Translations under genes and position numbers: made by a program
Source: Saprospirales bacterium
GTDB taxonomy: Bacteria; Bacteroidota; Bacteroidia; Chitinophagales; Saprospiraceae
Length of the DNA: 62,408 nucleotides
Direction: 5' to 3'
Assembly: GCA_002698985.1 (NCBI GenBank)
Contig: PAAY01000036.1
Coordinates: forward strand, 1 to 62,408
Shown: piece by piece, positions 28,609 through 59,412 of the stretch
Position numbering within the stretch: position 1 is the stretch's first letter
Layout: every line of letters begins with the position of its first letter
Notes under the pieces: model-generated
What the model was told of the DNA's origin: nothing
Database searches by the model: none
Seen by the model: the letters and a program-made list of their open reading frames with translations, nothing else

Positions 28609-29562
28609 TTACTTGCCGTGGTCGAAGCGCTTTTTGCCGCCGCTGAAGTCGAAGGCTACGGTCACTTCGTGGGTGCCGCCGTTGTATTGCTGCACATTCT
28701 GGAAGGACACGTCGTAGCTGTAGTACAGCCGGAACACATCAATGTTGGTTCCGAGCAGCAGACCCACGGCACCACCAACTCCAGCCCGGTAGGATAAGCC
28801 GGCAATCAGCTGATCATTGATGAAAGAACCTTTGATGTTGAAGTCAGCCTGAAAGGGCTTGTCTTTGATGCGCTGCACCATCATGGAAGGCTCGATGGTG
28901 AAGTTGTAAGGCTCCACCTCAAACTTGTGTCCGAAGGTGAGCACCACGAAACGGAACAGTGAACCCTGCGGGTCGCCCGATTCGATCTCACCGATTTTTG
29001 CAACGACGAGGTTGTTGAAAGTCAGCCCCACGAAAGTGTTGTCTTTGAAGCTGCTCCAGAAACCCAGGCTTGCATCAAAAATGCGGTTGCCGTCAACGGC
29101 ATCTTCGATGATGGGGTCGCCGCTTTCGTACAGCGGGCTTTCCAGAATGGAATTGGCTTCCTTAACGGTGTAAAAATCCGTGCTGAAACCAGCCGCCAGC
29201 TTGACATTGCGAAGCTGATAACGGAAAGCATAATTCAGCTGAAAGCGGAAGATGGACTGGCTCCCTACGTCTTCGGCCATGATGTTGGCACCGAGGCCGA
29301 GGGTACGACCGATGGGGCCGTTGTAGCCAATGCCGTAGGATTTTGGCGCACCGTCGAATCCCGTCCACTGGTTCCGCATGTTCATCTGAAGGCTGTGCAC
29401 TTCACCAAAACCCGTTGCTGCGGGATTGATGAGGATGGGATTGATGTGGTAATGTGAGAAAACGGTGCTCAGCGTCGTAACAGTGGAACCGGGATCGGTT
29501 TGAGCAAAAGCCAGTTGAGCTGAAAATGCGACGACGCTTATGAGAAGTAATAACTTTTTCAT
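28609..29562 (-). CDS. PorP/SprF family type IX secretion system membrane protein
   Basis: A 317-residue outer-membrane protein of the PorP/SprF family, members of which partner with T9SS substrates carrying type B sorting domains. Signal peptide (1-20, ending AFAQ); characteristic early motif HYHINPILINPAATG; then RNQWTGFDGAPKSYGIGYNGPI and repeated beta strands to a C-terminal FDFSGGKK. The ATG at 29562 is chosen over a TTG two codons earlier. It lies downstream of, and in line with, the SprB-like adhesin, the usual adhesin-then-SprF order, with a 13-bp hairpin between them. Confidence 0.94.
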   Translation of the reverse strand: MKKLLLLISVVAFSAQLAFAQTDPGSTVTTLSTVFSHYHINPILINPAATGFGEVHSLQMNMRNQWTGFDGAPKSYGIGYNGPIGRTLGLGANIMAEDVGSQSIFRFQLNYAFRYQLRNVKLAAGFSTDFYTVKEANSILESPLYESGDPIIEDAVDGNRIFDASLGFWSSFKDNTFVGLTFNNLVVAKIGEIESGDPQGSLFRFVVLTFGHKFEVEPYNFTIEPSMMVQRIKDKPFQADFNIKGSFINDQLIAGLSYRAGVGGAVGLLLGTNIDVFRLYYSYDVSFQNVQQYNGGTHEVTVAFDFSGGKKRFDHGK

Positions 29563-29608
29563 GTTCAAAGGATTTAATCGGTTGTTGGATTTGCGAGCAA
29601 GGTGAGTT

Positions 29609-29644
29609 GCTGCCGGAAACCCGGTGTTCCAGGTTTCCGGCAGC
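29609..29644 (-). other. Intercistronic hairpin between adhesin and PorP/SprF genes
   Basis: GCTGCCGGAAACC (29609-29621) pairs perfectly with GGTTTCCGGCAGC (29632-29644), a 13-bp stem with a 10-base loop, starting seven bases after the adhesin stop codon. No T-run follows on either strand, so it may be an mRNA-stability or partial-termination element that uncouples the expression of the two genes. Confidence 0.65.
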
Positions 29645-29650
29645 GCTCAT

Positions 29651-32600
29651 TTATTGTCGGAGGACGCTGATGCTTCCCTTGCGTACCTCCCGCTGGCCCG
29701 TTACGGGGTCCAGGTAATCGAATACATAGAAGTAAACCCCATCAGGAACGGCTTCACCACGGTTGTTGGTTCCCCGCCAGAGGTCACCATCGTTGTAGTT
29801 TTTGGTTTTGTAAACCAGCTGCCCCCAGCGGTTGTAGATTTCGAGGGTGTTGTCGTAGTAACGTGACAGGCAGGCGATGACAAACTCTTCATTCAGGCCG
29901 TCACCATCCGGGGTGATCACTGTGAGAACTTCGCCGCAGTTGGTAGCATCAGCTACATCAATAAAGAGGGTTTCCTCACAACCATTACCATCACGTACTA
30001 TCACGAGGTACTTACCAGGAAGTAACTCCGTGAGAATGCTATCTTCCTCTATATGGTCTTTCCAAGTGAACTTGAACGGATAGGTGCCGCTCTCAACGAT
30101 GACGATGGCCTTTCCGTTGGGGCCTCCTTCATCGGGCTCTGAAGCGCCGGTGAGGATGAGCGGCTCAAATTCCGGAATGACTGTCGTCGCAACTTCAGCA
30201 CAGCCGTTGGCATCGTTCACCATTACCTGGTAGGTGCCGGAGCTGAGCAAAACAGCCGTTTGCGTTTTCTGCGCTTGCGGATCGTTCCAGGAATAGGTAT
30301 AAGGCGCCACACCACCACTGGCAAAAGCAGTGGCCAGGCCGCTGTTTTCATTGCATCCGCTTCTGTCGCCTTCGGCAACGACGAACAGATCGTCAGGTTG
30401 GGTAATTGTCAGGGTTGAAGTTACCGAACAGCCTTGAGCGTCCGTAACCCGCACCTGGTAATTGCCGGCGGTCAGGCCGCTTCGCGTAGGTGCAGTGGAG
30501 TTATTGTCAAGCCAGAGGATGGAATAAGGTGCCACACCATTTTGAGGAGCCACCATTGCAGCACCGCTGTTTCCACCGTTGCAGCGCACGCCATAACCGT
30601 TGAAGTTGGTGGTCACTGTGGCCAGCGCCGTCAGGTTGGAAATGGGCTGAATGGTAAAAGTCTCGATGATGGACACACCCAGTGCATCGGTGATGAGTAC
30701 ACTGTAATCGCCCATGGGCTGGTTTTGCAACAGCGAATCAGTACCCACCACCTGGTTGGTGGCCAGGTTGCGCCACTCGTAGGAATATGGCCAGTTGCCG
30801 CCGGTCGGGATGGCAGCAATGGAGCCAAGCTGATCCGGACAATCCGGCTGATCCACCTGGCTGTTGGCCTGCAAAAGGCCGACACAGATGTCTTCAAAAA
30901 CATCGCAGCAGCCGTTTGCGTCGCAAATTGTGAGGTCGTAGCAACCCGGATCCAGGTTGGTCGGGTTTTGAGCGGTTGAACCATTGCTCCATTGGAAATC
31001 ATAGGGAATGGAACCACCCGTAGGTTTGATCTCGATTTTTCCTTTCAGGCTGGTGGTTGCGGGGTAAATTTTCACATTGCCCAACGAGAACACTACGACA
31101 TCTACCTCACCAGAACCGTTGACTTCCTGGAAGTCAGCTCCAGTACCACCATCCTTGATATTGATGGTGTAAGTGCCTGGGAGCAGGTTTTGGAAGGTGT
31201 GCTGGCCGTCGGCGTCGTTGCTGACGCTCTGGTTACCCGAAGGACCGTTGATGGTAATGTTGAAAGGAGGTGTGCCGCCATTGGCAATGACGGTAAGCAT
31301 GCCGTTGTTGGTATTCGAACAGGCCGGCACCGGTACGGAACTCAGTGAAAGCGCCGGCGGAATGTAATCCACGACATAAGAGGCGCTTGCCGTACAGCCG
31401 TTGACATCGCTGGCCGTAACGGTGTAGGTTCCTTCACAGGCACCTGTCAGGGTACTTCCGGTGAAGCCTGTGTCCCAGGTATAGGTGAATGGAGAACCAA
31501 ATCCGCCGCTGGCAGTGCCATTGACATTGATGGTACCGTTGCAGGCTTGTGAGTTGCTCGGCGGGCTGACTATGCCACCGTTGATCTCAACTGGGCTCTG
31601 CGCCTGTGAAACGTTCACGGTCAAAGTCTGTGACTGGTTGTCGATCGGGCTGGTTACCGTGACGGTGTATGAGCCCGGGCACAGGTCGGCGATGTTCTGC
31701 GTCGTAGCACTGTTGCTCCAGGTGTATTGCAGTGGTGGAATACCCCCTGACACATTCAGGGTCACTTCCCCGTCGCAAACACCGAAGCATGCATTTTTCT
31801 TATCAGCTGAAATCAACAGCGGTGCAGAAACCACGTCTGAATCAGTTTCAGTACAGCCGTTGAAGTCGGTAACTGTCAGGTTGTAAGTTCCTGAACAGAG
31901 GTTGCTGAGGTTCTGAAGATCAGACGTGAAGTTAGGTCCTGTCCAGCTGTAATTGTATGGCGGTGTACCACCAAGAACTGTTGTATTTATTGAGCCGTCG
32001 CAATTGCCGGAAGTAGCATCTGTTGGCACCAGGGTGGTTGAAATTGCCGGAGGCGAAGTAACCGTGGCCTGGTTGGTGATGATACATCCGAAAGCGTCGC
32101 GGACCTGCACGGTGTAGTTGTTGGCAGTGAGGTTCGGGAAGGTGGTGTTGTTGCTCCAGTTGGGGTATGGAGGTACATTGACCGCCCTGTATTGATAGGG
32201 AGCCACACCACCTGTTGCATTGACAATGATGGATCCACTGCTTTGCCCAAAGCACTTGGCTGGAATGGGTGTCAGGGTTACATTCAGTTGCGAGGGCGGG
32301 CCCTGCAATTCGAAGGGGCCTTCGACCAACTGACATCCATTGCAGTCAGTGATGGTAACGGTGTAAGAACCTGCCGGCAGGTTGAAGAGGTCTTCGGTGG
32401 TGGCGCCATTGCTCCAGTTGAATGTATAGTCGGAACAGGAAGGCGGATCGAGTGTGCCACCGTTGACCGTCAGGTTAATGGCACCCGTTGACTGTCCAAA
32501 ACAAGAGGGATTTGTCAACTGGGCGGTTACTGAAATTGCCGTAGAAGGCTCAGTAATGGTATAGGTTGCGGTTTGGGTTTCGTTGCCGCTGCAACTGCTG

Positions 32601-34180
32601 ATGGTAACGCTGTAGTCGCCTGCGGCAAGGTTGCTGAGGTCTTCCGAGGTGGCTCCGTTGCTCCAGTTAAAGGAGTAGTTGCCGTCACCGCCGCTGACCG
32701 ATAGATTGATGGAACCACTGTTATCGCCATTGCAATCCACATTTGTAACATCGGCAGAAACGATCTGAACCGGACCGGCACAAGCTCCTCCTGCCTGAAT
32801 GTTCACCGTGCCAGTAACGAAAGAGGGACTGAGTGTGGCAGAGTTACAATCGGTAACTTCGATGACCGTGGGAGTGCCATCAAAGGTAATATCACTGCTT
32901 TCACCGTCATTGCCGATGGCATCAAAACAAAGCTGGAAAATGACGGTACTGTCCGGAACGGTAACGCCCAGGGTGGACTGGTCGAACCATGAGAAGGTGA
33001 CTGTTCCAGCTGTGCTGTTGCTGAAGTTGGCGGCACTGAGGTCAGGCAAACCAAATCCAGTGACGTTTGAGTATTGGAGGACGTTCTGGTCGTAGTGCAT
33101 GGAGAATTGCGCACTTACGATGCAGTCAAAATCCTGGACGGTCACGTCCACGCAAACGTTGCCGTTGGGCTCCACGGTTTCGTCGGAAGCCTCAAAAACC
33201 AGCCCTGCAGGGGGCGGTGGGTTGCCATTGTCACAAATGGTGATTTCTCCAGCTACACCTTGCCAGGGAACGATTTGGCCGTTCACATCCGTAACTTCAG
33301 GCGGTGTCGGAGAATTGGGGAAATCAAACAAAGAAGAGGCGTTGCAGTTGTTGGGGCCAATGGCCGTAAAGCAGACCTGGTAGATCACCGTACCGTTTGG
33401 CAGGGTTTCTCCGTCCACTTCCGGATCCAGCCAGGAGAGGGTCAGGATTCCGGAACCCGCCTGATTGGTACCAATGTTTCCGGCATTCAGACCATTGAGG
33501 TTGAAACTTTGCACAGAAGTGTATTCAATCTGTGTTTCATCAAAACCCATGGTGTATTGCATGGAAACGATGTCGGTAAAATCCTGCACGCTGATGTCAA
33601 CGCAGAAATTGGCGCCAGGCATCACCGTCTCATCCGAAGCAATGATGGCAAAACCGGTTACTGGCGGTTTTCCTCCTCCGCCACCGCCGCCGCCGTTGAC
33701 GGAGCAGTTTTGTGGAGTCATTCCAATGCTATTGCCCTGAGAATCGATCACCTCGATGGGTGTCGGCGTATTGCCGAAGGCGATGGTAGTAGGTGTGTTG
33801 GCGAGCACATTGAATGTTATGCTGTACAACACCGTTCCATTTGGCACACTGACCCCTGTAACGTTTGGATCAAACCAGGAGGCGGTCATCACACCGGAAC
33901 CGGCATTGTTGGTGCCGATATTAGCCATGGTAAAACCTGGCAGATCGGTGGTGATGTTGGAGATACTGACGTACTCGATAGCCGCAGCATCCCAGGTGAG
34001 GGAATACTGAAAGCTGAGAATGTCAGTAAAACCATCCACGACGATATCCACCGTGAAAGATTGACCAACATCTGCCGTAACTGATTGAGGAGAAACAGTG
34101 AAGGTGGGTTGTGCAAAAACATTCAGCGTGCTGAAAAATACCAACGCGCCAATGACGAGGGTCGTAATCGGTCTTTTCAT
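29651..34180 (-). CDS. Giant surface adhesin: three cohesin-like modules, 12 SprB repeats, type B T9SS domain
   Basis: A 1509-residue exported protein. Signal peptide 1-23 (ending VFAQ). Three cohesin-like modules follow at about 25-165, 172-325 and 328-468, sharing patterns such as DGFTDILSFQYSLTWD, QDFTDIVSMQYTMGFD and QDFDCIVSAQFSMHYD; an eight-Gly linker joins the first two. Residues about 475-1410 hold 12 SprB-type repeats (core pattern WSNGATxxNLxxLxxGxYTVTVTDxNGC). The gliding-motility C-terminal domain (about 1414-1509, ITPDGDGLNEEF and YNRWGQLVY) is the type B T9SS signal. It is probably secreted by the T9SS and held at the surface with the neighbouring PorP/SprF protein. The cohesin modules are unusual in a SprB-like protein. 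Confidence 0.93.
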   Translation of the reverse strand: MKRPITTLVIGALVFFSTLNVFAQPTFTVSPQSVTADVGQSFTVDIVVDGFTDILSFQYSLTWDAAAIEYVSISNITTDLPGFTMANIGTNNAGSGVMTASWFDPNVTGVSVPNGTVLYSITFNVLANTPTTIAFGNTPTPIEVIDSQGNSIGMTPQNCSVNGGGGGGGGKPPVTGFAIIASDETVMPGANFCVDISVQDFTDIVSMQYTMGFDETQIEYTSVQSFNLNGLNAGNIGTNQAGSGILTLSWLDPEVDGETLPNGTVIYQVCFTAIGPNNCNASSLFDFPNSPTPPEVTDVNGQIVPWQGVAGEITICDNGNPPPPAGLVFEASDETVEPNGNVCVDVTVQDFDCIVSAQFSMHYDQNVLQYSNVTGFGLPDLSAANFSNSTAGTVTFSWFDQSTLGVTVPDSTVIFQLCFDAIGNDGESSDITFDGTPTVIEVTDCNSATLSPSFVTGTVNIQAGGACAGPVQIVSADVTNVDCNGDNSGSINLSVSGGDGNYSFNWSNGATSEDLSNLAAGDYSVTISSCSGNETQTATYTITEPSTAISVTAQLTNPSCFGQSTGAINLTVNGGTLDPPSCSDYTFNWSNGATTEDLFNLPAGSYTVTITDCNGCQLVEGPFELQGPPSQLNVTLTPIPAKCFGQSSGSIIVNATGGVAPYQYRAVNVPPYPNWSNNTTFPNLTANNYTVQVRDAFGCIITNQATVTSPPAISTTLVPTDATSGNCDGSINTTVLGGTPPYNYSWTGPNFTSDLQNLSNLCSGTYNLTVTDFNGCTETDSDVVSAPLLISADKKNACFGVCDGEVTLNVSGGIPPLQYTWSNSATTQNIADLCPGSYTVTVTSPIDNQSQTLTVNVSQAQSPVEINGGIVSPPSNSQACNGTINVNGTASGGFGSPFTYTWDTGFTGSTLTGACEGTYTVTASDVNGCTASASYVVDYIPPALSLSSVPVPACSNTNNGMLTVIANGGTPPFNITINGPSGNQSVSNDADGQHTFQNLLPGTYTINIKDGGTGADFQEVNGSGEVDVVVFSLGNVKIYPATTSLKGKIEIKPTGGSIPYDFQWSNGSTAQNPTNLDPGCYDLTICDANGCCDVFEDICVGLLQANSQVDQPDCPDQLGSIAAIPTGGNWPYSYEWRNLATNQVVGTDSLLQNQPMGDYSVLITDALGVSIIETFTIQPISNLTALATVTTNFNGYGVRCNGGNSGAAMVAPQNGVAPYSILWLDNNSTAPTRSGLTAGNYQVRVTDAQGCSVTSTLTITQPDDLFVVAEGDRSGCNENSGLATAFASGGVAPYTYSWNDPQAQKTQTAVLLSSGTYQVMVNDANGCAEVATTVIPEFEPLILTGASEPDEGGPNGKAIVIVESGTYPFKFTWKDHIEEDSILTELLPGKYLVIVRDGNGCEETLFIDVADATNCGEVLTVITPDGDGLNEEFVIACLSRYYDNTLEIYNRWGQLVYKTKNYNDGDLWRGTNNRGEAVPDGVYFYVFDYLDPVTGQREVRKGSISVLRQ

Positions 34181-34333
34181 ATGTTCGGAGTTGGGACTAT
34201 TAAATAATCGGTTCGGTTGCTCTTGGGTTCTTTTGGGGTTACCCGCAGGTAATCGGAAAAATCAAAAATTGTTGAGGATGAAGGAACAGCTGCCCTTTTC
34301 AGAGCACCTGCGCCTTCAGCTTCAACTTGTTGT

Positions 34334-35107
34334 TTACTGCACTACCAACTGCCGGGTAGCTGTACCGTTAGCAGTTTGCAGGGTGTAAACATAGGTTCCA
34401 GCGCTCTGGAACAAATTTCTTTCAACAGGAATTGCATGTGAACCGGCATTGTAGAAACCACTCTCGGTGTAAACCACGCGGCCGGTCTGGTCATAAATAC
34501 TTAAATGGGTTTCGGTACTCTTGTTCAGGTCAAACCTGATGTGAGTGACATCGGTAAATGGATTCGGGGTGTTCTGATAGAGCACAAAATCAGTTGAGAT
34601 CGTCTCGTTGGCGGCGTTAGGCCCCATCACGGTAACGGTACCGTTCTGGATGTTGTACGGCATCATGCCGGAAGTGGATACCACTTCAACTACGATGGGC
34701 TCATCGGTAATGGTCACCTGGGTACTGCTGCTGGGATCTCCTACCACTTTGAACTTTACAGAGAAAATGGTGGACATGTCCGGCAGGGTAACACCGGTGA
34801 GTTCCTGGTGGAACCATGCAAAACGCAGGATTCCCTGGTCAACCTGCATCAATCCGAAATTGCCGTCGGAGGTCAATCCGGGTAATCCAAAATTGTCAAC
34901 GTTCACGAATTCGAGGACCTGCGGATCCCAGTTGACTGAGAACTGAAGGCCTGTGATCATGTCAAAATCTTCAACTTGAAGGTCGAGGCTAAAAGTTGCA
35001 TCGGGGTCCACCTCAAGGTTGGGGGTTTTCAAAACAACCTCCTGTGCATTGAGGGTTCCGAGTGCAAACAGCGATAGAACAACGAGGGGTAAATAAAACT
35101 TTTTCAT
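34334..35107 (-). CDS. Cohesin-like module protein with type A T9SS sorting domain
   Basis: A 257-residue secreted protein: signal peptide (1-21, ending LNAQ), one cohesin-like module (about 24-165; VEDFDMITGLQFSVNWDPQ), and a T9SS type A C-terminal domain (about 175-257; FVLYQNTPNPFTDVTHIRFDL, GSHAIPV, GTYVYTLQT). The minimal architecture suggests a free or lipid-anchored surface cohesin. It has its own -7 box (35134-35141) and is separated from the upstream gene by a terminator, so it is probably transcribed independently. Confidence 0.92.
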   Translation of the reverse strand: MKKFYLPLVVLSLFALGTLNAQEVVLKTPNLEVDPDATFSLDLQVEDFDMITGLQFSVNWDPQVLEFVNVDNFGLPGLTSDGNFGLMQVDQGILRFAWFHQELTGVTLPDMSTIFSVKFKVVGDPSSSTQVTITDEPIVVEVVSTSGMMPYNIQNGTVTVMGPNAANETISTDFVLYQNTPNPFTDVTHIRFDLNKSTETHLSIYDQTGRVVYTESGFYNAGSHAIPVERNLFQSAGTYVYTLQTANGTATRQLVVQ

Positions 35108-35133
35108 AATATTTCGCTATGCAAGTAGTTTGC

Positions 35134-35141: not shown

Positions 35142-35155
35142 AACCGAAAATCGGT

Positions 35156-35191: not shown

Positions 35192-35212
35192 GTATTGGTA
35201 AATCCTTGCGGA

Positions 35213-38200
35213 TTAATCGATTACGATCAGCTTCCTGGTTGCCGTGTTAGCGGCAGTTTCCAGGGTGTAGTACATCACGCCGGTGGCGTTGAGGTCGTTG
35301 CTGTTGAGGCTAAGCTGGTTGTAACCGGCAGCAAACTCACGCTCGATGGTGGTGAGTACACGGCCAGCCATATCAGTTACGGTCAGCTTGGCGATACCAG
35401 CTTCAGGCAGGTTGAAACCAATGGTAGTCTCACCCTTGAATGGGTTCGGCACGTTTTGGTACAACTCGAAGTTGGCAGCAACAGCACCGTTGAAGCTCAG
35501 CTGAACTCCCATCAGGTTGCCATCCACATCGTAAGCTTCAGCCGGAGTGAAGCGTGAATTCACGCTTACAGCCTCGCTTACACGGGTAGCAGCTTTGGCA
35601 CGGAAAACAACTGTGAACAGGTTGTCAGCAGTGGCTTTACCGTTCCAGCTGGTAGTGATGGCACCCTTGTCGAGCAGGGTCAGGCCAAAGTTTTCAGCAG
35701 TAGCTACGCCAGGAACAATGTCAACGAACTCGAGAACTTCGCGGTCGAAGTTAAGGGTAAATTGGTAACCAAGCACATTTGCATCGGCAGCAGTGAAAGA
35801 AACGGTTACTTCTTCACCTTTTTCAACCTTTTTGTCATCAGCAACGAGGGTCCAGTTGCCAGTGGTACGCTCCTCAACACCGGCAGTGAGGTTGGTGGTG
35901 GCATTGCCATTCACGTCACCCACTTTCACTGCTACGAAGTTGGCATCGATCACACTGCTTGGAATGTTGTTGATGTTGATCAATTCAGGGAACTCCTCGC
36001 TCCATGGGTTAGCAGGATCCGGGAATACATATCCCTTGTCCACAAAGCGCCATGAAGTGTTGTTGTTCAGGTTCGGAATGATCTGAAGGATCAGCTTACG
36101 GAGCTCAACAAGGTCGGCAGTCGTTACTGATTTTGACTTGTTGGCATCGGCAGCGATCAGCTTGTACGGAGAACCGAGCGGTTGTGTTCCAAGAATGTGC
36201 TTACTAATCAGCACGAGGTCGTAAGTGGTTACACCATTGAGCGGATCGTTGTCTTTCTCAGGAGTAACGGTTACGTCGTTGCCAAGCGGAATGTTGGCGA
36301 AGTTGTACATACCGTTGACATCCGTCTGAGCGACAGCGTTGCTCTGGCCGCTAAGGTTCATGGTAACATCTTCAACCGGGTTGTTGTCTTCGTTGGCAAC
36401 TGCACCACCGAGGTTGGCTACGAGCGGACCACCACACTGACCCATGTTGGCCTGGATGATCACGAAAGTTTCGCAGTAATCCTGGTTGCCACTGGCATCG
36501 GTTACCCAAAGCTGAACCGGCTGCTGACCGAGGTCGTCGCAAGTGTAAACACGGCTCTTGTCAGTCACGTCAGAAGAGAATGACAGCTCAAGGGCTCCCG
36601 GGCAGTTGTCGAAGCTGCCGGCGTTGAGGTCAGAAGCCCAGATCTCAACCATAGCCGGGTTGGTGTTCATCAACTCAACCACGATACCATTCTTACAGTA
36701 TGGAGTCGGTTTCTTGCCATCATAAACAGTCACGGTGCTGTGGCAAACAGTCTGGTTGTTGCAGTTGTCAATGGCCTTGTAAGTCACGTTGTATGTACCA
36801 GGAGCCACACCGGTGAAAGGACCGAAGCCGGCACCCAGGTCACTGGTAGCAGTAATGGTTACGTTCGGGCTGCAATCCTGAACATCAGGAGTAGGCAGCA
36901 GAACAGTAGCGGTGCAACCATTGCTGAGGATTTCTACATCATCGATCTCACAACCGCTGGCAAATACCGGATCAACATCGTCGATCACTTTGATGATCTG
37001 CTTGTAAGTAATGAAACCATCCCATGGATCGCTGTCGAGATCGGTGTCCGGGCCAGTTTGCTTGGTAGCATCGGCAGCAGTTGGTTTGCTGGTGGCATTC
37101 CAGCTGTCACGGAAAGTGCGGTTGTCGCAATCGCCGTCTTTGTCGAGGTCACAGGCAGGGAAAGGCAGACCGAGTGCATTTTCAGGTGTTTCCACCACCT
37201 CCTGATCGATGTTGTTACCTACAACACACCAGTTGATCACTGTCCAGGTACGCTGGATCTTGTAGCAAGCATCCGGAACGACGTTGTAGATGACATCGTC
37301 ATGAGAAACAGCTACCAGCTCACAGGTTTCGTAGAAGATCTCAGGCTCACCAAAGCTGGGAACAGTGTTGCCACAGTTCACGGTGATGTCAGCCGGGAAT
37401 TCTACCACCCAGTCAGAAACGTGGTCAACGAAGATGGTTTGGGTGCAAGTCTGCAAGCCGTTGTTGCCTGAACCATCTTTTGCACTCCAGGTACGGGTAA
37501 TGGTACCTTCGAGGCACTGATCGATGTTGATGTTGATTCCACGGGTTACGGTAAAATCACAGTTATCGAAGAAAGAAGCATTGCCGAAATACTGATCGAG
37601 GAATTCGCTCTGAGCTTGAGGATTGCCTGCGAGGCCGGCAAGTTGCGTTTCCAAGTTATCAGCGTAGAAATCGCAGGTAACGCGCTGGTTTTGCGGGCAG
37701 CTCTGGAGCACCGGAGCAACCTTGTCATTTACATTCACTGTTACCATGCAATCGTTGTAGTTGCCATAGCAGTCAAATGCACGGAATACGACAGTGATAG
37801 GTGACTGGTCGAGGTCATTGCAGCAGAACACAACTGAAGGGCCGAAAACGGTGTCGTCGTGGCCGTCGTCACAGTTGTCAACCATGCGGCGCACCTCAAA
37901 ATGATCGAGGCAGCAGTTGTCATGGGTGCCGTCGTCGAAAACGCTGGCATTCACAACGGCTTTGCCGTCAGTTGCAAGGTTTACGTCAGTGATTTCATCA
38001 CAAACAGTGGTTGGGGCAGCGTTGTCCACAACGGTTACCGGAACAGTAATGGTAGTTTGGTTACCACATGCGTCAGTTGCCTGGTAGGTAATGTTATGAA
38101 CACCGACGGGCAGACCCGGAGCCGGGATCATACCACCGTTATTTCCATTTCCACCACTTACATAGATGGCTTCACCAACAGGAGTGAAGATTTTCACGGT

Positions 38201-39409
38201 AACTGTGTTGCAGTTGTCAGAGTAAGTAGGCGCTTTCAAAAAGCCAGTTGATTTACAAACCTGTGGGTGTTGTGCAGGAATGGTAACAGGCACGTTGAAC
38301 GGAGCCACGCTGATCAGCGGAGCCACATTGTCAATTACTTTGATCACCTGTACGTTGTCTTCTCCACCTACGCCGGTGGTAACAACTGTGCCGGTACACC
38401 AGTCGAGAACGGTCCAGGTACGGATGATCTTGAAAGTGTTACCGCAGGTTTGCAGAGTCTGGTCACTGCTTGACTGCTGGTAGTTGCAGTACTGGCCAAT
38501 GATGTTGGCAACAACACCTGAGCCGGTCAACTCGAGCACATCGGCATCATCGAGGCCGTTGCCCGGGCAACCGTTGCCACCGTTGGCAGTGTTGGTGCTG
38601 TTCACAGCAGCGTTGTCTACAAATGGTGCATCGTTATCGTCGCAACCTGGGTCGAGGTTGACGTCGATAACATCGGCAGTGCCGGGGTCAGAATCGCCAA
38701 CATAAGCGTGCAATGCAGTGGCATCTACGATGTTGGGATAAGCGGCGTACTGGTCGCAAGTCCAAATGATGTCATTCGGAAAGTCAACAGCAGCCGGACG
38801 CTCAACAGTGATCACGTGATCACAAGAAGCGGAAATGTTGTTATAGTCGTCAAAGGCAATGTAGGTACGGGTGATGATCACCTGACCATTGCCACACAAT
38901 CCGCTTGTGTTGATGGTTTCGTTGGTTAACTGAATAGTTGGGGTTGCATCGCAGTTGTCAACTGCAGTCGGCAGCGCCACACTGTTGAGGTCTTCCCAGC
39001 AACCTACGGTAGCAGTACCACAGGTAATTACCGGAGGAAGCTTGTCCTCGAGGATCATGTTACCCCAGCAAGAGTTACCAGTAGCCAGGTCCTCGATGGT
39101 TGTCGTCAAGGTCTGACCGAAATACTGGCTGGCATTGTTGATTTCCACCTCGTTCACGCCGGTGGCAATAACAGTAATGCCGTGCTTGATGGTGATTTGG
39201 TAATCATGACCCGGAAGCGGGTCGCCTTCAAGGATCATGTCAGCGTTGATGAGCGCGTGACATTGGTTGGGTGTAGGGTCAATGGAGACCTGCACCAGGT
39301 TGTTACAGGCCAAGGCCTGAGCCTCAGCACGCTGTATTCCGAAGATCAACATCGGAACAGCGAGTACCCATGTAAGCCAGGGTTTTGCTGTAAAATTCGT
39401 TTTTGTCAT
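35213..39409 (-). CDS. T9SS surface protein with Ig/HYR-like repeats, dockerin-like and cohesin-like modules
   Basis: A 1398-residue secreted protein. Signal peptide (1-31, ending AEAQ). Residues 32-990 contain Cys-rich Ig/HYR-like repeats (patterns such as DNVAPLISV, DACGNQTTITVPVTVVDNAAP). A CarboxypepD/SdrD-like module (about 994-1060, GGAVANEDNNPVEDVTMNL) leads into a dockerin type I-like module (about 1065-1165): a first loop D1088-A-N1090 to D1099 with LVELRKLIL helix, and a second partial loop VGDVNGNA. A cohesin-like module (about 1180-1305, NVLGYQFTLNFD) and a type A T9SS domain (about 1314-1398, FELYQNVPNPFKGETTIGF) close the protein. Having both partner modules in one chain is unusual. 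It is a paralogue of the protein at 55315. Confidence 0.92.
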   Translation of the reverse strand: MTKTNFTAKPWLTWVLAVPMLIFGIQRAEAQALACNNLVQVSIDPTPNQCHALINADMILEGDPLPGHDYQITIKHGITVIATGVNEVEINNASQYFGQTLTTTIEDLATGNSCWGNMILEDKLPPVITCGTATVGCWEDLNSVALPTAVDNCDATPTIQLTNETINTSGLCGNGQVIITRTYIAFDDYNNISASCDHVITVERPAAVDFPNDIIWTCDQYAAYPNIVDATALHAYVGDSDPGTADVIDVNLDPGCDDNDAPFVDNAAVNSTNTANGGNGCPGNGLDDADVLELTGSGVVANIIGQYCNYQQSSSDQTLQTCGNTFKIIRTWTVLDWCTGTVVTTGVGGEDNVQVIKVIDNVAPLISVAPFNVPVTIPAQHPQVCKSTGFLKAPTYSDNCNTVTVKIFTPVGEAIYVSGGNGNNGGMIPAPGLPVGVHNITYQATDACGNQTTITVPVTVVDNAAPTTVCDEITDVNLATDGKAVVNASVFDDGTHDNCCLDHFEVRRMVDNCDDGHDDTVFGPSVVFCCNDLDQSPITVVFRAFDCYGNYNDCMVTVNVNDKVAPVLQSCPQNQRVTCDFYADNLETQLAGLAGNPQAQSEFLDQYFGNASFFDNCDFTVTRGININIDQCLEGTITRTWSAKDGSGNNGLQTCTQTIFVDHVSDWVVEFPADITVNCGNTVPSFGEPEIFYETCELVAVSHDDVIYNVVPDACYKIQRTWTVINWCVVGNNIDQEVVETPENALGLPFPACDLDKDGDCDNRTFRDSWNATSKPTAADATKQTGPDTDLDSDPWDGFITYKQIIKVIDDVDPVFASGCEIDDVEILSNGCTATVLLPTPDVQDCSPNVTITATSDLGAGFGPFTGVAPGTYNVTYKAIDNCNNQTVCHSTVTVYDGKKPTPYCKNGIVVELMNTNPAMVEIWASDLNAGSFDNCPGALELSFSSDVTDKSRVYTCDDLGQQPVQLWVTDASGNQDYCETFVIIQANMGQCGGPLVANLGGAVANEDNNPVEDVTMNLSGQSNAVAQTDVNGMYNFANIPLGNDVTVTPEKDNDPLNGVTTYDLVLISKHILGTQPLGSPYKLIAADANKSKSVTTADLVELRKLILQIIPNLNNNTSWRFVDKGYVFPDPANPWSEEFPELININNIPSSVIDANFVAVKVGDVNGNATTNLTAGVEERTTGNWTLVADDKKVEKGEEVTVSFTAADANVLGYQFTLNFDREVLEFVDIVPGVATAENFGLTLLDKGAITTSWNGKATADNLFTVVFRAKAATRVSEAVSVNSRFTPAEAYDVDGNLMGVQLSFNGAVAANFELYQNVPNPFKGETTIGFNLPEAGIAKLTVTDMAGRVLTTIEREFAAGYNQLSLNSNDLNATGVMYYTLETAANTATRKLIVID

Positions 39410-53262: not shown

Positions 53263-53984
53263 TACTCCAGGTAAAACTCCCTGGTCAGGGCGATGTAATC
53301 TTCAGAATAATCCGGGCCGGCGCCGGCGTGGATGCAGAGGCTGTCTTTTTGGAGAGGATTGACATTGCATTCAAACTGTAGCAGAAGTCGCTCGACGGGT
53401 TTGCCGGGGCGGGTATGCACCTCGGTGAGGCGGGTGCAAAAGAGGTGGTAGCTGTTGGCCAGTTCCCGGAAGCGGAGGCCCTCGATGTGGGGCAGGATGA
53501 CAGCAAAGCGTCCGGTGGGTACCAGCAGTTTTCTGACGGCCGACAGAAGGTCACCGTGGGGTAGTTTAATGGTGTGGCGCACGGCCATGCGGTCGTTGTT
53601 GTCGGAAAAAGTGCCGCCACTGAAAAAGGGCGGGTTGCTGACGATGAGGTCGTACTGTTGCCTGTTTTCCTTCGCAAAATCCTGGATGGAAGTGGCAAAA
53701 GTCCGAAGCCGTTCCGGCCAGGGGCTGGCAGCCATGTTCTCGGCGGCCTGGCTGGCAGCGTCGGGATCAATTTCCACGCCGTGGACTTCTGCCTTTTCAG
53801 CTCGCTGCGCAAGGATGAGGGCCATGACGCCGCTGCCAGTGCCAATGTCCAGAATCCTGCCGGCGCCGGTCACATCGGCCCAGGCGGCCAGCAACACGCC
53901 ATCGGTGCCCACTTTCATGGGGCACTTGTCCTGTGCAACACTGAATTGTTTGAACCGGAATGGCTTAACTACGGGATTGGACAT
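53262..53984 (-). CDS. tRNA1(Val) A37 N6-methyltransferase TrmN6-like protein
   Basis: A 240-residue Rossmann-fold methyltransferase of the YfiC/TrmN6 group, which methylates N6 of A37 in tRNA-Val. Motif I is LDIGTGSGVMALILAQR (about 45-61), followed by VHGVEIDPDAA and the catalytic NPPF motif (IVSNPPFFSGG, about 116-126). The N-terminal FRFKQFSVAQDKCPMKVGTDGVLLAAW is diagnostic. A perfect -7 box TACCTTTG lies at 54023-54030 on the minus strand. The last codons overlap the edge of the repeat cluster. Confidence 0.92.
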   Translation of the reverse strand: MSNPVVKPFRFKQFSVAQDKCPMKVGTDGVLLAAWADVTGAGRILDIGTGSGVMALILAQRAEKAEVHGVEIDPDAASQAAENMAASPWPERLRTFATSIQDFAKENRQQYDLIVSNPPFFSGGTFSDNNDRMAVRHTIKLPHGDLLSAVRKLLVPTGRFAVILPHIEGLRFRELANSYHLFCTRLTEVHTRPGKPVERLLLQFECNVNPLQKDSLCIHAGAGPDYSEDYIALTREFYLE

Positions 53985-54022
53985 ATCAATGCGAGAATTT
54001 CACGGCTTTTGGCAGAGCGCTG

Positions 54023-54030
54023 CAAAGGTA
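54023..54030 (-). promoter_or_regulatory. -7 box for the TrmN6-like gene
   Basis: TACCTTTG on the minus strand, exact match to TAnnTTTG, 39 bases before the ATG at 53984. Confidence 0.5.
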
Positions 54031-54045
54031 GCAGAGCGGGGGGAA

Positions 54046-54114
54046 TTGTTGAGATTGTTGAAGTGTTGAATTGTTGAGATTGTTGAGATTGTTGAGTGGC
54101 TACCGGTCGATTCC
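54046..54114. repeat. TTGTTGAGA tandem units
   Basis: About six copies of ATTGTTGAGATTGTTGAG-type units between the TrmN6-like and queD genes, followed by GATTCCTCAATTCCTC. Similar CAACAATCTCAAC words appear in reverse at 765-905. Confidence 0.7.
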
Positions 54115-54552
54115 TCAATTCCTCTCCCATTCAGCATAGGAAGTCGGTGTTTCATACAATTTTACGGAATGGAGCTCCACGCCGGCAGGCAGTTCGGGTC
54201 TGATGGCCTCTACCATGTAGATGAGCAGGTTCTCGCAGGTGGGCTGAAAGGGCACGGTCACGAGCTTTTGGCCGTCGTTGCGCAGAGCGCTAAGGAGGGC
54301 TTCAGAACTCGCCTCCGGCAATACCAGCGCATGGTCGAACACTTCCAGGATTTTTTCTTTCACGATGGCCTTCAGCACTTTGAAGTCCATCACCATCCCG
54401 TTTTTGGGGTGGCCGGGTTGGTTGAGTGGCTCGCCGATCACCGTCACCTCCAGTTGGTAGGTATGGCCGTGGATGTTGCGGCAGGCCCCGTCGTAGCCCG
54501 GCAGCCCATGCGCCATATCGAATGTAAAGATCTTGGTCAGTCTGATTTTCAT
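54115..54552 (-). CDS. queD: 6-carboxytetrahydropterin synthase (QueD family)
   Basis: A 145-residue enzyme of the PTPS/QueD family, converting dihydroneopterin triphosphate to 6-carboxy-tetrahydropterin in queuosine synthesis. Zinc ligands H15, H28 and H30 (FDMAHGL, RNIHGHTY) and the catalytic Cys24 are present, as are FDHALVL and PTCENLLIYM, and the C-terminal Glu motif KLYETPTSYAEW. The frame is open upstream into the repeat cluster, but the ATG at 54552 matches the family start. CAAAGGTC at 54575-54582 is a one-mismatch -7 box. Confidence 0.95.
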   Translation of the reverse strand: MKIRLTKIFTFDMAHGLPGYDGACRNIHGHTYQLEVTVIGEPLNQPGHPKNGMVMDFKVLKAIVKEKILEVFDHALVLPEASSEALLSALRNDGQKLVTVPFQPTCENLLIYMVEAIRPELPAGVELHSVKLYETPTSYAEWERN

Positions 54553-54609
54553 GTCCCTTCGGAAAATTTGGACGCAAAGGTCCGGAATGAAATTTAGCAG
54601 GAAGATGAT

Positions 54610-54900
54610 TTTGGTCAATAGTAAATAGCTCGTAGCTCCCCGAGTTCTCGGGGCAGGCTGTGGCTCGTAGTCAGGCGACAGGGATGAGGGGTGAGGGATG
54701 AGGGATGAGGGAGCTAGCTCCTTCAAACCCTACACTCTACACCCTAAACCTATTTAACCACAGAGTTAAACAGAGTTGTTACACAGAGTTTCAAGGAGTT
54801 TTGACACGGAGTTTCACGAAGCTAGCGCCCCAACCCTACTCCCTACTCCCTACTCTCTACTTGTTTAGACGTTGCAATGCAACGTCTCTACACCCTTTAA
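54610..54900. repeat. Intergenic modular repeat cluster 8
   Basis: Words AGCTCGTAGCTCCCCGAG and CTCGGGG (54625-54675), GGGATGAGG units (54680-54712), GCTAGC (54713-54718), AAACCCTACACTCTACACCC (54725-54748), ACCACAGAGTT and CACAGAGTT units (54757-54815), GCTAGC (54821-54826), CTACTCCC array (54836-54860), and a third AGACGTTGC hairpin (54867-54887). Confidence 0.8.
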
Positions 54901-54936
54901 ACTATCCGCCCATCCGACATTTACCCCCGGCGGGGT

Positions 54937-54967
54937 ATTGTCCGGGGCATGGTAGCCTGTACCTTTG
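54937..54967 (+). promoter_or_regulatory. Promoter of the second dockerin/cohesin gene
   Basis: ATTG (54937-54940), then 19 bases, then TACCTTTG (54960-54967): a full match to both Bacteroidota promoter elements. Transcription would begin near 54974, giving a leader of about 340 bases before the ATG at 55315. The long leader resembles that predicted for the paralogue at 39409. Within 54975-55314 I see no ORF or clear riboswitch. Confidence 0.65.
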
Positions 54968-55314
54968 CATCGGTTTTTTTCTAAACTGTTCTCCATCGTC
55001 TGGATCTCAACCAGAAAATACCAACCAAACTTTTCTCCAAATCTTATCTCAAACTAAAGCGAAGCCCGTTGGCATGCTATGAAGGCTGAAAGGCTGTGCC
55101 CGAAGTCTGCATGTGCAACACGGTATTTCGCTTCCATGAAAAAACGGGGCAGCCGCCCTGGCCGGACGATAATTAACCATTCCTAATTTTTTCCAAACTG
55201 TACGCACTTAGTTCTGGTGCCCGGTAGTTGGCATTGCCTGTATAAGGTTTTGTGCAGCGACCAGACACCATTTCGATACGACGAATCTTATTCTTTAACC
55301 AAAAACGGAGTCCC

Positions 55315-58300
55315 ATGAGACGACTGTTACCCAGTCTGGTGCTGGCCCTTCTTGGATTTGCCATCACCCCTGCTATTTCCCAGGACACCATACCGCCGGT
55401 CATCAATTGCCCTGGCAACATGGTGTTTACTTTGGCCCCTGGAACTTGTGAAATGCCCGTCTTTTTCAATGTTTCAGCCACCGACAATGTATCCTCACCG
55501 TGGATCGTGCAAATCGACGGGACCGGTTACACCTCCGGGAGTGACTTTCCCATTGGCGTACACAACCTCGTTTTCGTAGCCTCGGATTCGAGCTTCAACA
55601 CCGACACCTGCGCCTTTTCCATCACCATCAACAACTATTCACCACAGACTTCGGGCGTCGCCTGCGACGACCTGCTCCACATCTCCATGCCGGCCACCTG
55701 CGAAATGTGGCTGACCCCAGGCATGGTGCTGGAAGGTGATTACGGTTGTTACGACGACTTCCTGGTGGATGTAGGAAAGACCGGTAGCAACTACATCGGC
55801 TATTACTATGTAGGCAAGAAGATCCCGTACAAAATCACCAACACTGTTACGGGCAATTCCTGTTGGGGTGAACTGCTCATCGAGGACAAAGCCGGCCCCC
55901 TCATCGAAGGCTGCGACTCTGTGACCATCAACTGTCTGGAAGACCCCGCCCCAACCGTGGAAGGCGGCGTGGTGCCTACCCCCACCTTTACCGACTGCCT
56001 TAACTACGACACCCTCTGGGTGGACATGGTGACGCAGGGCCAGTGCACCGGCAATGTGTACTCCCAGATCATGCGTATATGGTCGGCTACGGATTCGCTG
56101 GGCAATTCCAACACCTGCAACCAGATCATCACCATCGAGCGGCTGCCGCTGGACTCTCTGACCGTAAACTGCGCCCCTGACACCCTCATCGAGTGTGTGC
56201 CGGGTGTGGATCCGGACCTGAGTCCTGCCGCTACGGGCTATCCCTATGTGGTCATCGACAGTGTGACCTACTACATTACCGATGGTGCCAACAGCCTCTG
56301 CAACATTACCGCCTCCTACTCCGACCAGGTGATTCCGGTGTGTGGCGCGAGCTACCGCATCGTGCGCACCTGGACCATCCTGGATTGGTGTCAGGATATC
56401 AACATGACCACCAACCCCATCATCTGCAAGCAGATCATCACCTACAGCGATCAGACGGCCCCGCAACTGACCTTGCCGCCAGATTTCATCGCCAGCGCCA
56501 ATCAACCAGGTTGCCGGGCAAGGCCCGACCTTCCTGCTGCCAACGTGGAAGACTGCTCTTCCTGGTCGGTGATCATCACCACACCGGTGGGGCCCATCGC
56601 CGGCAACGGTGGTCAGGTGCCTGCACCCGGATTGCCGATAGGCGACAACAACATCATCTACAAAGCCACTGATGCCTGCGGCAACAGTGTAGCTGACACC
56701 CTACTTGTAACCGTGGTGGACAATGTGAAACCAACCGCCGTTTGTGACCTGCACACCGCAGTGGCCCTCGACGGCCAGGGTTACGGCTTTGCCTATGCCG
56801 AAACTTTTGACGACGGCAGCACCGACAACTGCTGCATCGAGGACTTCAAAGTGGCCAAACTGACCGATGCCTGTGGCAACCCCGACAACCTCGTCTATGG
56901 CGATTACATTGACTTCTGCTGTATGGAGGTGGGGCAAACCGTCATGGTTTCCCTGCGGGTTTACGACTGCCACAACAATTACAACGAATGCCTGGTGAGT
57001 GTAGAAGTTCAGGATCAGGCAGGGCCGAGCATCACCTGCCCACCCGATGTGAACGTTTATTGCGGACAGGACTATCAGAACCTCGCCGTCACCGGCGATG
57101 TGGTTACTGATCCGCAATGGCAAGGCCCCAACGACGGCCTGGCCACCGATAACTGTGGTGCCAACCTGACGATCACCCATTCCGACGAAGGAACGGTTGA
57201 TTGTGGCAGCGGAATCGTTTACCGAACCTTCCTGGTAACCGACCCTGCCGGACTTGAGCAATTTTGTGTACAACGCATAACCGTGGAAAACAACAACCCG
57301 TTCACCGGGCAAAACATCATCTTCCCGCCCGACACCACCATGTACGGGTGTGCTTCCTCCACCCTGCCGGTGAACACCGGGCAGCCCGTGCTGCCACCCC
57401 CGTCGCCATGTGCCATGCTGACGGCTGCCTTCTCTGACCAGGTTTTCAACTCCATTCCCGGAGCCTGTCAGAAAATCTACCGTACCTGGAGCGTGATCGA
57501 CATGTGTCAGTACGACCCGAACAACCCATCTTCCGGTGGCATCTGGACACACACCCAGGTAATCATGGTGATTGACAACACCCCGCCGGTGGTGACCTCC
57601 TGCGAGGACCGCACCTTCTGCAACTTTAAAGCGGACTGCGGCCCCATTGCACCTGACCTCTCTATCGCTACAACGGATGCCTGCACACCCGACAGCCTGT
57701 TGTATTACACATGGACGGTGGACCTCGGCAACGATGGCAGTATCGATGACCAGGGCTCCGGGCAGAACACCACCAGCCCCTACCCCATGGGTACCCACCG
57801 CATCGATTACAACATCATCGATGCCTGTGGCAACGTGAGCAGTTGTTCTTTCACCTTCAGCATTGCCGACTGTAAGAAACCTACGGTTTACTGCAACGGC
57901 GGACTGGTGGTCACCATCATGCAAACGGGTATGATCGATGTGGCTGCTTCGCAACTGGAACAGGGCAGCTCTTACGACAACTGTACACCGCGGGAAGACC
58001 TCCTGATCTCCTTCTCGCCCAACCCGGCTGACAGCGTGCGCACTTACACCTGCGCCGACGTAGGCCAACAACTCGTGCAAGTCTGGGTGACTGACGCATC
58101 CAACAACCAGGACTACTGTGAAACAACCCTGACCATCCAGGACAACATGACGGCCTGCGCCGACACCCTCGTGGTGCTGGGCGGAACCGTAGCCAATGAA
58201 AATGCACAGGGAGTTGAATCCGTCACCGTGGAACTGAATGGCGATGTGACCAGCATGGCTTACACCAGCCCGCAGGGTGTGTTCCAGTTCCCGGATGTGC

Positions 58301-59412
58301 CGGTGGGCTATGACTTCACCGTGACGCCGTCTTACAACGACAATCCGCTCAATGGTGTAACCACCTTCGACATCGTGCTGTTGCAACGCCACATACTGCA
58401 CGTGCAGTTGCTGGATTCACCGTACAAGGTCATTGCCGGTGATGTCAACAACAACGGCACCTTGACAGTGAGCGATGTTGTTGACCTTCGGAAACTGGTA
58501 CTGCACAGCGTGCCCAACTTCCCCAACAACACCTCCTGGCGCTTTGTGGACAAGCAATGGAACTTCACCGATCCTATGAATCCATTTGACCCGGCCTTCC
58601 CGGAAGTGTGCAACCTCAACGACCTGCCCACCAACCAGCTACCGGTTGACTTCGTGGCGGTGAAGGTCGGTGACCTCAACAACACGGCCATTACCAGCTC
58701 GCTGCACGATGGCGGCGTGGATGAGCGCTCCGCAAGAGAGTTGCCGCTGCGCACCCCACAGCAGCAGTTCAAGGCTGGCCAGCTCATCGAAGTGCCTGTA
58801 AGGGCCTCACTCGATGGCCTGCTGGGCTACCAGTTCACCTTCGAGTTTGATGCAGCTGCGCTGCAACTGGAAGACCTGCAACCCGGCGAACTGGCTGACA
58901 TGAGCAATTTCGGCCTCAGCCACCTGGACGAAGGTGTGATCACCACCAGTTGGAGCCAGGTGCAACCGGTTGAGCAGGATGGCGAAGTAATTCTTTTCAC
59001 CTTGCACTTCCGTGCAACGAAAGACGGCAAGCTCAGCGAGGCACTCAGCCTGAGCTCACGCTACACAGCGGCCGAGAGTTACAACGCCAGCGGCGAAATC
59101 GTGAAGCCAATCCTGGAACTGGTTGAGCCGAATGGCACGCTTTCAACCAAGCGCTTTGAGCTGTACCAGAACGTACCCAACCCCTTCACGGGTGAAACGA
59201 TCATCGGCTTCGAATTGCCGGAGGCGACGCAAGTTACCTTCCAGGTCTATGATGTGGCCGGACAAATGATCAAAGAGGTACGGGGACAGTTTGCTGCAGG
59301 CTACCATGAAGTAAGCCTTGCAAGGGAAGACTTCAACGGCCGTGGCGTTTACTTCTACCGCCTTGAAACGCCTGAATTTACTGCGACCAAGAAAATGACA
59401 ATGCTTGAATAA
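55315..59412 (+). CDS. T9SS surface protein with HYR/Ig repeats, dockerin-like and cohesin-like modules
   Basis: A 1365-residue secreted protein, paralogous to the 35213-39409 product. Signal peptide 1-23 (ending AISQ); an HYR domain (about 25-105, DTIPPVINCPGNMVF); Cys-rich Ig-like repeats (about 110-950); a CarboxypepD/SdrD-like module (about 953-1015); a dockerin type I-like module (about 1020-1120) with loop D1043-V-N1045-N-N1047-G to D1054 and a second partial loop VGDLNNTA; a cohesin-like module (about 1145-1270, LLGYQFTFEFD); and a type A T9SS domain (about 1281-1365, FELYQNVPNPFTGETIIGF). I use the ATG at 55315; a GTG at 55252 is less likely. Two terminator-like hairpins follow. Confidence 0.92.
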   Translation: MRRLLPSLVLALLGFAITPAISQDTIPPVINCPGNMVFTLAPGTCEMPVFFNVSATDNVSSPWIVQIDGTGYTSGSDFPIGVHNLVFVASDSSFNTDTCAFSITINNYSPQTSGVACDDLLHISMPATCEMWLTPGMVLEGDYGCYDDFLVDVGKTGSNYIGYYYVGKKIPYKITNTVTGNSCWGELLIEDKAGPLIEGCDSVTINCLEDPAPTVEGGVVPTPTFTDCLNYDTLWVDMVTQGQCTGNVYSQIMRIWSATDSLGNSNTCNQIITIERLPLDSLTVNCAPDTLIECVPGVDPDLSPAATGYPYVVIDSVTYYITDGANSLCNITASYSDQVIPVCGASYRIVRTWTILDWCQDINMTTNPIICKQIITYSDQTAPQLTLPPDFIASANQPGCRARPDLPAANVEDCSSWSVIITTPVGPIAGNGGQVPAPGLPIGDNNIIYKATDACGNSVADTLLVTVVDNVKPTAVCDLHTAVALDGQGYGFAYAETFDDGSTDNCCIEDFKVAKLTDACGNPDNLVYGDYIDFCCMEVGQTVMVSLRVYDCHNNYNECLVSVEVQDQAGPSITCPPDVNVYCGQDYQNLAVTGDVVTDPQWQGPNDGLATDNCGANLTITHSDEGTVDCGSGIVYRTFLVTDPAGLEQFCVQRITVENNNPFTGQNIIFPPDTTMYGCASSTLPVNTGQPVLPPPSPCAMLTAAFSDQVFNSIPGACQKIYRTWSVIDMCQYDPNNPSSGGIWTHTQVIMVIDNTPPVVTSCEDRTFCNFKADCGPIAPDLSIATTDACTPDSLLYYTWTVDLGNDGSIDDQGSGQNTTSPYPMGTHRIDYNIIDACGNVSSCSFTFSIADCKKPTVYCNGGLVVTIMQTGMIDVAASQLEQGSSYDNCTPREDLLISFSPNPADSVRTYTCADVGQQLVQVWVTDASNNQDYCETTLTIQDNMTACADTLVVLGGTVANENAQGVESVTVELNGDVTSMAYTSPQGVFQFPDVPVGYDFTVTPSYNDNPLNGVTTFDIVLLQRHILHVQLLDSPYKVIAGDVNNNGTLTVSDVVDLRKLVLHSVPNFPNNTSWRFVDKQWNFTDPMNPFDPAFPEVCNLNDLPTNQLPVDFVAVKVGDLNNTAITSSLHDGGVDERSARELPLRTPQQQFKAGQLIEVPVRASLDGLLGYQFTFEFDAAALQLEDLQPGELADMSNFGLSHLDEGVITTSWSQVQPVEQDGEVILFTLHFRATKDGKLSEALSLSSRYTAAESYNASGEIVKPILELVEPNGTLSTKRFELYQNVPNPFTGETIIGFELPEATQVTFQVYDVAGQMIKEVRGQFAAGYHEVSLAREDFNGRGVYFYRLETPEFTATKKMTMLE

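Follow-up and report, generated by a model that had tools for sequence, protein, structure and literature searches.

Cohesins, dockerins and type IX sorting signals in a Saprospirales genome: a probable non-cellulosomal surface system

Contig PAAY01000036.1 of a Saprospirales bacterium, whose 62,408 nucleotides are the window analyzed here, encodes four secreted proteins (A to D) bearing modules that resemble the cohesins and dockerins of clostridial cellulosomes, and the question it raises is what such modules might do where no glycoside hydrolase accompanies them. A preliminary description of the window had proposed that they build a structural surface network. The analysis points to a non-cellulosomal cohesin-dockerin surface system exported by the type IX secretion system (T9SS), a reading that we consider probable. 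At the level of sequence, its single-cohesin proteins have a T9SS domain of type A or else a signal resembling that of lipoproteins, and the dockerins of its long repeat proteins are either fused to a cohesin and a T9SS domain or stand free at the C-terminus.

The draft genome, to which the window belongs as contig C42, spans 4.83 Mb in 102 contigs (95.5% complete), and in it cohesin, dockerin, X and T9SS modules were mapped with hidden Markov models (HMMs) of our own, built from these sequences; the A1 profile represents 15 X-dockerin-cohesin modules of this genome. A set of 79 loci (L042-L120) was assembled by likeness to that unit, the best 80 of at least 557 relatives being kept. Their records are mostly assigned to Saprospiraceae, Saprospirales, Chitinophagales or Bacteroidota, and include Phaeodactylibacter xiamenensis KD52 and Lewinella cohaerens DSM 23179. 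Eight of 13 same-genus relatives were examined (G001, G003, G004, G006-G009 and G012); together with the genome itself (G000) they are the nine genomes referred to below.

Cohesins, dockerins and sorting domains of the window

The six cohesins anticipated in the four proteins are recovered by Pfam Cohesin (PF00963, curated cut-off 24.1 bits), with three stretches in A (79.6 bits) and one each in B (37.1), C (34.0) and D (27.7); the cohesin module of C scored 37.4 bits. A search of 14 control genomes with the same model gave a match in one, Methanosarcina acetivorans. The A1 profile matches the solved cohesins 3l8q, 4ums and NagJ 2w1n in the expected stretches, and all 10 sequences of solved structures matched by a scaffold-cohesin profile at E<=1e-3 are chains of scaffoldin or cohesin entries, including two labelled "Endoglucanase" that nonetheless belong to cohesin-dockerin entries. 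Predicted folds agree: for the X-dockerin-cohesin model of C, the first 17 Foldseek hits all belong to cohesin or cohesin-dockerin structures, and the scaffold cohesins of A reach a template modelling (TM) score of 0.83 to 5nrm_A. This comparison covered the cohesin of C and the scaffold cohesins of A, those of B and D being assigned by score. In a tree of 72 cohesins, those that follow a dockerin in the same chain (cis cohesins) are split from the scaffold cohesins by a branch with 99/96 support.

The modules foreseen as dockerins in C and D score as dockerin relatives, and the A1 profile matches the solved dockerins 4dh2_B (E 1.2e-6) and 4uyq_B (E 3.5e-6) where expected; a few other chains, such as NOMO2, are also matched, in the X module. 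Pfam Dockerin_1 (PF00404, cut-off 22.9 bits) scores whole C at 16.3 and whole D at 14.1 bits, both under its cut-off, although C rises to 21.6 bits as an isolated module and 23.1 bits in the genome scan; D is absent from the genome-scan matches at E<=0.001. In the 79-row alignment of the unit, the first F-hand loop has D or N at position 1 in 77 rows (D in 60), D or N at position 3 in 67, and D at position 12 in every row. The second has D at both positions 1 and 12 in 79/79 rows, with its D-N-S-T/S-D pattern retained in 76-79, and in both loops S or T occupies positions 9-10 in 74-79 rows. After the second F-hand, both window dockerins continue into a long conserved extension with the motifs SWRF and FPE, then GDVN in C and GDLN in D. 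The end of this extension resembles the start of an F-hand loop and, speculatively, might complete a first loop that lacks the usual position-5 ligand.

All four proteins end in T9SS sorting domains, as had been described, with a PorP/SprF gene alongside (Table 1). A carries the type B domain (CHU_C; TIGR04131 at 36.0 bits, cut-off 35) and also matches the type A model TIGR04183 at 36.8 bits (cut-off 23), by which B, C and D score 44.7, 30.8 and 39.7 bits. Pfam Por_Secre_tail (cut-off 27) puts B over its threshold at 36.8 bits and C (26.4) and D (24.4) slightly under. HYR domains exceed the Pfam cut-off in C and D. D shares the design of C and stands outside the operon; it had been placed from 55315, where an in-frame ATG does exist, but its listed open reading frame opens earlier, at a GTG at 55252. 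The genome also encodes SprA (2427 bits) and holds 17 PorP/SprF matches, that of the window among them.

Table 1. Coordinates of the features in the window (AF2, AlphaFold2)
Feature	Position	Strand	Basis or remark
PorP/SprF outer-membrane shuttle/anchor gene	28609-29568	-	PF11751 169.6 bits; downstream of type B scaffold
Protein A, scaffoldin: three N-terminal scaffold-class cohesins, 10 SprB stretches, CHU_C	29651-34180	-	Pfam/NCBIfam
A, type B T9SS sorting domain	29657-29932	-	CHU_C 83.6 bits, own HMM
A, cohesin 3	32831-33202	-	own HMM
A, cohesin 2	33266-33661	-	own HMM
A, cohesin 1	33725-34111	-	own HMM; AF2 tandem model
Protein B	34334-35107	-	signal-peptide-like N-terminus (by eye), cohesin, T9SS
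B, type A T9SS domain	34340-34579	-	TIGR04183, own HMM
B, scaffold-class cohesin	34658-35047	-	Pfam, own HMM
Protein C: HYR-type repeats, X, dockerin, cis-class cohesin, type A T9SS	35213-39409	-	Pfam, NCBIfam, own HMM
C, type A T9SS sorting domain	35219-35461	-	TIGR04183, own HMM
C, cis cohesin	35486-35854	-	37.4 bits, AF2, own HMM
C, dockerin: two F-hand loops and conserved extension	35903-36247	-	Pfam, A1 profile, own HMM
C, X module, CarboxypepD_reg-like	36251-36436	-	Pfam (under cut-off), own HMM
Protein D: HYR repeats, X, dockerin, cis cohesin, type A T9SS	55252-59412	+	Pfam, TIGR04183, own HMM
D, X module	58156-58338	+	own HMM
D, dockerin	58342-58683	+	own HMM 169 bits; Pfam 14.1 bits only
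D, cis cohesin	58741-59115	+	Pfam, own HMM
D, type A T9SS sorting domain	59164-59406	+	TIGR04183, own HMM

Fused units, operons and free dockerins

A survey of the genome for further dockerin proteins found 21 dockerins and 30 cohesins in 27 mapped proteins. Sixteen of these are cis fusions, with a cohesin after the dockerin; 15 of them carry a type A T9SS domain by our own models and the sixteenth (L040) by Pfam. An X module is present in 10 of the 16, and of the 14 cis proteins scanned, eight exceed the Pfam cut-off for HYR. Beside them are three proteins that end in a dockerin and six that have cohesins only. The other 14 cohesins lie in A (three), a scaffold on contig C88 (five), a scaffold on contig C51 (two), B (one), and two small proteins, the last cohesin being upstream of a dockerin on C51. 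In a phylum-wide sample of 247 genomes, the module was present at E<=1e-20 in this genome, in four of the five other listed genomes of the same family, and in two of the 241 others. Within a second set, 27 of 40 genomes (this one included) gave some match, cohesin-only matches being counted, and these included all 13 same-genus relatives.

Three operons in this genome share one layout, in which a PorP/SprF gene and a dockerin gene accompany a scaffoldin that has several cohesins and a type B T9SS domain. Operon I, that of the window, has the order X-dockerin-cohesin with a C-terminal domain (CTD), cohesin-CTD, scaffoldin with three or four cohesins, and PorP, and is found in all eight same-genus relatives examined (L176-L183). 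The PorP gene and five-cohesin scaffoldin of operon II are present in 8/8 as well (L156-L158, L184-L188), its dockerin gene adjoining the scaffold in this genome, G003, G007 and G009; operon III is present in seven (L189-L195), with no match in G007. The order dockerin-cohesin, small cohesin, multi-cohesin recurs at 9 of the 79 loci, where the stretches covered show no PorP; four of the nine possibly coincide with contigs of G001, G004, G007 and G009 already counted among the relatives. Scaffold valency varies: the genus has three or four cohesins, L046 has five, and P. xiamenensis has at least about 11. Some cohesins of the P. xiamenensis scaffoldin (L057:8298-12978) are near-identical and are read in two overlapping frames, which is a frameshift or an assembly problem in the repeats.

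In the cis fusions, the dockerin stands close to its partner. The distance to the cohesin of the same chain is 16 residues in C and 19 in D, and in 140 distinct dockerin-cohesin pairs the linker measures 13-32 residues, falling within 15-20 in 128. For the X-dockerin-cohesin stretch of C, AlphaFold2 gave a predicted TM score (pTM) of 0.86 and a predicted local distance difference test (pLDDT) score of 90.8, with linker residues 191-193 below 50; a free-floating cohesin would be expected to cap pTM at about 0.55-0.6, as estimated from domain lengths. A control of three tandem scaffold cohesins, modeled from an alignment of 11 rows as opposed to 79, reached a pTM of 0.43, as for beads on a string. 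The stretch in C is thus predicted to form one rigid body, and the same would be expected of D by likeness; the pTM suggests that docking in C may occur within the chain or by swapping. Because the window dockerins lie just before the cohesin of their own chain and the model is rigid, they may be self-occupied. The proposed structural network may therefore depend mainly on dockerin-terminated proteins encoded elsewhere.

Such proteins are present in all nine genomes. Twenty distinct long repeat proteins, chosen because our own models place neither a cohesin nor a T9SS domain behind the dockerin, end 5-23 residues beyond it: four in G003, three each in this genome, G006 and G009, two each in G008 and G012, and one each in G001, G004 and G007. 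(Of 23 initial rows, three were set aside: L028 as truncated, L037 as a duplicate, and L034 for lying at a contig edge.) The nine of the 20 that were scanned with NCBIfam at E<=1 gave no C-terminal T9SS domain, although in three the PorU sortase model matches an internal stretch. The remaining parts are weakly assigned repeats, HYR exceeding the Pfam cut-off in only L152 of the genome's own three (L151, L152 and L154). A signal-peptide-like N-terminus was recognized in 13 of the 20 by a crude script, and by eye in L151 and L154 among the other seven. On the dockerin tree, free and fused dockerins interleave, with 10 changes on the best tree, three of them forced by well-supported forks; the cohesin-CTD tail was therefore probably gained or lost more than once. 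Judged by their architecture, the dockerin-terminated proteins are the strongest candidates for trans binding.

A frameshift or contig end was considered as the cause of the short tails. It was rejected at the DNA level for L151, in which a TAA directly follows the tail and no same-strand frame of at least 120 amino acids begins before position 4769; for the other proteins, the stop lies within the stretch and related genomes have proteins of like length. Among 20 regions in which a dockerin match stops short, 16 held 17 such proteins and four (L167, L172, L174 and L175) held none. The proteins in those four, about 760-820 amino acids long, have X-dockerin on the N-terminal side followed by 530-580 residues of another kind, L175 being cut by the end of its stretch. 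At L168:258-10411 (G003:C146), two dockerin-terminated genes flank an X-dockerin gene with a T9SS domain in a row of three; our own models missed a cohesin in the middle gene, yet the A1 match spans that stretch. In L170, a dockerin-cohesin-CTD gene adjoins a dockerin-terminated one.

Readings of the system

In the system that we favor, PorP/SprF would carry the scaffoldin and anchor it in the outer membrane, by analogy with SprB/SprF. Free C-terminal dockerins would snap into the cohesins of scaffolds, lipoproteins and small proteins, and the rods so docked, adhesin-like and held by calcium, would form a coat. In the fused C and D, dockerin and cohesin would dock within the chain and form a rigid stalk before the sorting domain; alternatively, they could swap between neighboring chains to give a head-to-tail polymer. 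The network proposed in the preliminary description thus stands in part, as the lack of hydrolases in the 18 dockerin proteins scanned, the long adhesin-like carriers and the T9SS signals make a structural role likelier, but the dockerins of C and D are themselves fused to a cohesin.

Several observations weigh against this interpretation. With Pfam as the sole guide, the dockerins of C and D score no better than about its cut-off, and position 5 of the first F-hand loop is Leu in 63/79 rows, which is not a usual calcium ligand. The top 50 Foldseek hits of the C model include cohesins but no chain recognized as a dockerin, so the dockerin identity rests on sequence. The dockerin-cohesin contact is read from pTM, relative to the shallower control, and the constant tandem order would also fit a fixed structural unit without trans binding. 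The operon II dockerin gene was not found nearby in G001, G004 and G008, and the G006 and G012 contigs end there. Finally, the suggested adhesin role follows from domain type only.

The tandem order leads to the rival that deserves most attention, namely that X-dockerin-cohesin acts purely in cis as a rigid stalk beside the T9SS signal, that scaffold cohesins bind other things such as glycans or proteins, and that no network exists. The short constant linker, the rigid AlphaFold2 body and the separate classes of cis and scaffold cohesins all suit it, as does the finding that all 94 frames with a dockerin in L042-L120 have a cohesin after it (92 of them also matching the type A model), in a sample biased by its dockerin-cohesin query. 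Nevertheless, we judge it unlikely, given 20 dockerin-terminated proteins across 9/9 genomes, scaffoldins without dockerins in the very same operons, and free dockerins that form no separate clade.

Much less probable is a cellulosome-like degradative complex in which scaffoldins gather enzymes, even though the module types are the same and Candidatus Stygibacter (Cloacimonadota) pairs a CTD-bearing scaffoldin with dockerin enzymes in the excerpts of its description (PMC8542988). The preliminary description had noted no glycoside hydrolase, and Pfam found none in 18 of the genome's 21 dockerin proteins (all but L032, L033 and the contig-edge L034), which favors a structural over a digestive role. 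The sole catalytic-type domain in the 18 is a Redoxin/AhpC-TSA domain in L155, the rest having HYR/Ig-type repeats or no assignment, and weak CelK matches in L154 and L163 are limited to the end of that model, over the dockerin. (L155:2379-3767, on G000:C35, consists of Redoxin/AhpC-TSA and a dockerin followed by 153 residues, in which no cohesin or T9SS domain was found.) Least credible of all is the idea that generic Ig- or Big-type adhesin domains were mistaken for cohesins and dockerins. The weak Pfam dockerin scores could be cited for it, as could integrins and antibodies in the Foldseek list of the scaffold model, but these rank below cohesin dyads. Generic Ig domains were ruled out on profile and fold matches, which point to cohesins: 21 of 22 matches in the genome exceed the curated Cohesin cut-off, solved cohesins and dockerins are matched, and at E<=0.01 Dockerin_1 is found in 76/79 and Cohesin in 55/79 alignment members.

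A more tentative extension of the favored surface system, possible but rather doubtful, concerns export itself. Dockerin-terminated proteins may be captured in the periplasm by cohesin proteins with a T9SS signal (those of the B type and the PorP scaffoldins), pass through the outer membrane in the folded, docked state, and remain attached at the surface; the 16 fused proteins would then be a covalent version of the same pair. According to the excerpted text of one paper, T9SS moves folded proteins, and piggyback import into peroxisomes and a Tat hitchhiker have been described, though not for T9SS (PMC9251779). A search of titles in the open PubMed Central (PMC) literature found no T9SS piggyback export. 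If proteins without a CTD do leave the cell in this way, the C-terminal domain would no longer suffice for listing the substrates of T9SS.

Relation to known systems and paired single-cohesin genes

The cohesin and dockerin profiles, multi-cohesin scaffoldins and single-cohesin anchors are shared with the clostridial cellulosome, whose X-dockerin dyads are comparable to the X module preceding the dockerin here. Unlike in that system, no hydrolases occur on the dockerins scanned, dockerin and cohesin mostly share one chain, and anchoring would involve T9SS and PorP/SprF rather than the cell wall. Non-cellulosomal cohesins and dockerins were reportedly treated by Peer et al. in 2009.

The nearest published system, in the excerpts at hand, is that of Ca. 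Stygibacter, which also has a tandem-cohesin scaffoldin, a conserved C-terminal domain for surface attachment and dockerin partners; its dockerins, however, are on GH18, GH57 and peptidases, whereas those here are on long repeat proteins, and cis fusions and PorP operons distinguish the present system from what those excerpts describe (PMC8542988). ANME (anaerobic methanotrophic) archaea similarly have many cohesins and dockerins without cellulose use, along with HYR domains, but the corresponding excerpts describe neither an operon logic nor T9SS signals, nor dockerin proteins without a CTD; the same 2017 source states that it was not known what cohesin and dockerin proteins do apart from cellulosomes (PMC5244752). 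A type B protein with a neighboring PorP/SprF is a known secretion and anchoring pair, as excerpts on SprB/SprF and PG1035/PorP indicate; the SprB/SprF arrangement and SprB repeats recur in protein A, whose scaffold differs in bearing cohesins (PMC9143113, PMC12618676). Two T9SS papers that name cohesins and dockerins report them, in the passages available, as absent from their organisms (PMC5831590, PMC6851124), an absence called in 2018 consistent with other Bacteroidetes genomes (PMC5831590). Within the accessible portions of the open PMC literature, the combination of cohesin/dockerin, T9SS and PorP/SprF was not found, nor was any assignment of these modules to Saprospiraceae. The kind of system is thus already known, and its combination here was not met in those texts.

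What the locus offers is a system within one family of the Bacteroidota that is conserved, organized in operons and apparently not degradative. With its anchors, its scaffolds of differing valency, and dockerins of both the free and the fused form in the same genome, it makes the function of non-cellulosomal cohesins and dockerins directly testable. It would link T9SS surface biogenesis to modular assembly and could yield new cohesin-dockerin pairs.

Single-cohesin genes are also paired side by side in each of four relatives (L196-L199), their counterparts in this genome lying on separate contigs (G000:C35:53837-54487 and G000:C87:4605-5183). The second gene of the pair encodes a small, putatively exported protein with a hydrophobic N-terminus and, by eye, no T9SS domain, which may be periplasmic. 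The other is lipoprotein-like with a putative SDD/GDD-type signal for surface export, its Cys being followed by SDDK, NSDDK, GDDK or GSDDK, close to the surface-lipoprotein consensus SDDDD/SDDFE given in the excerpted source (PMC5080379).

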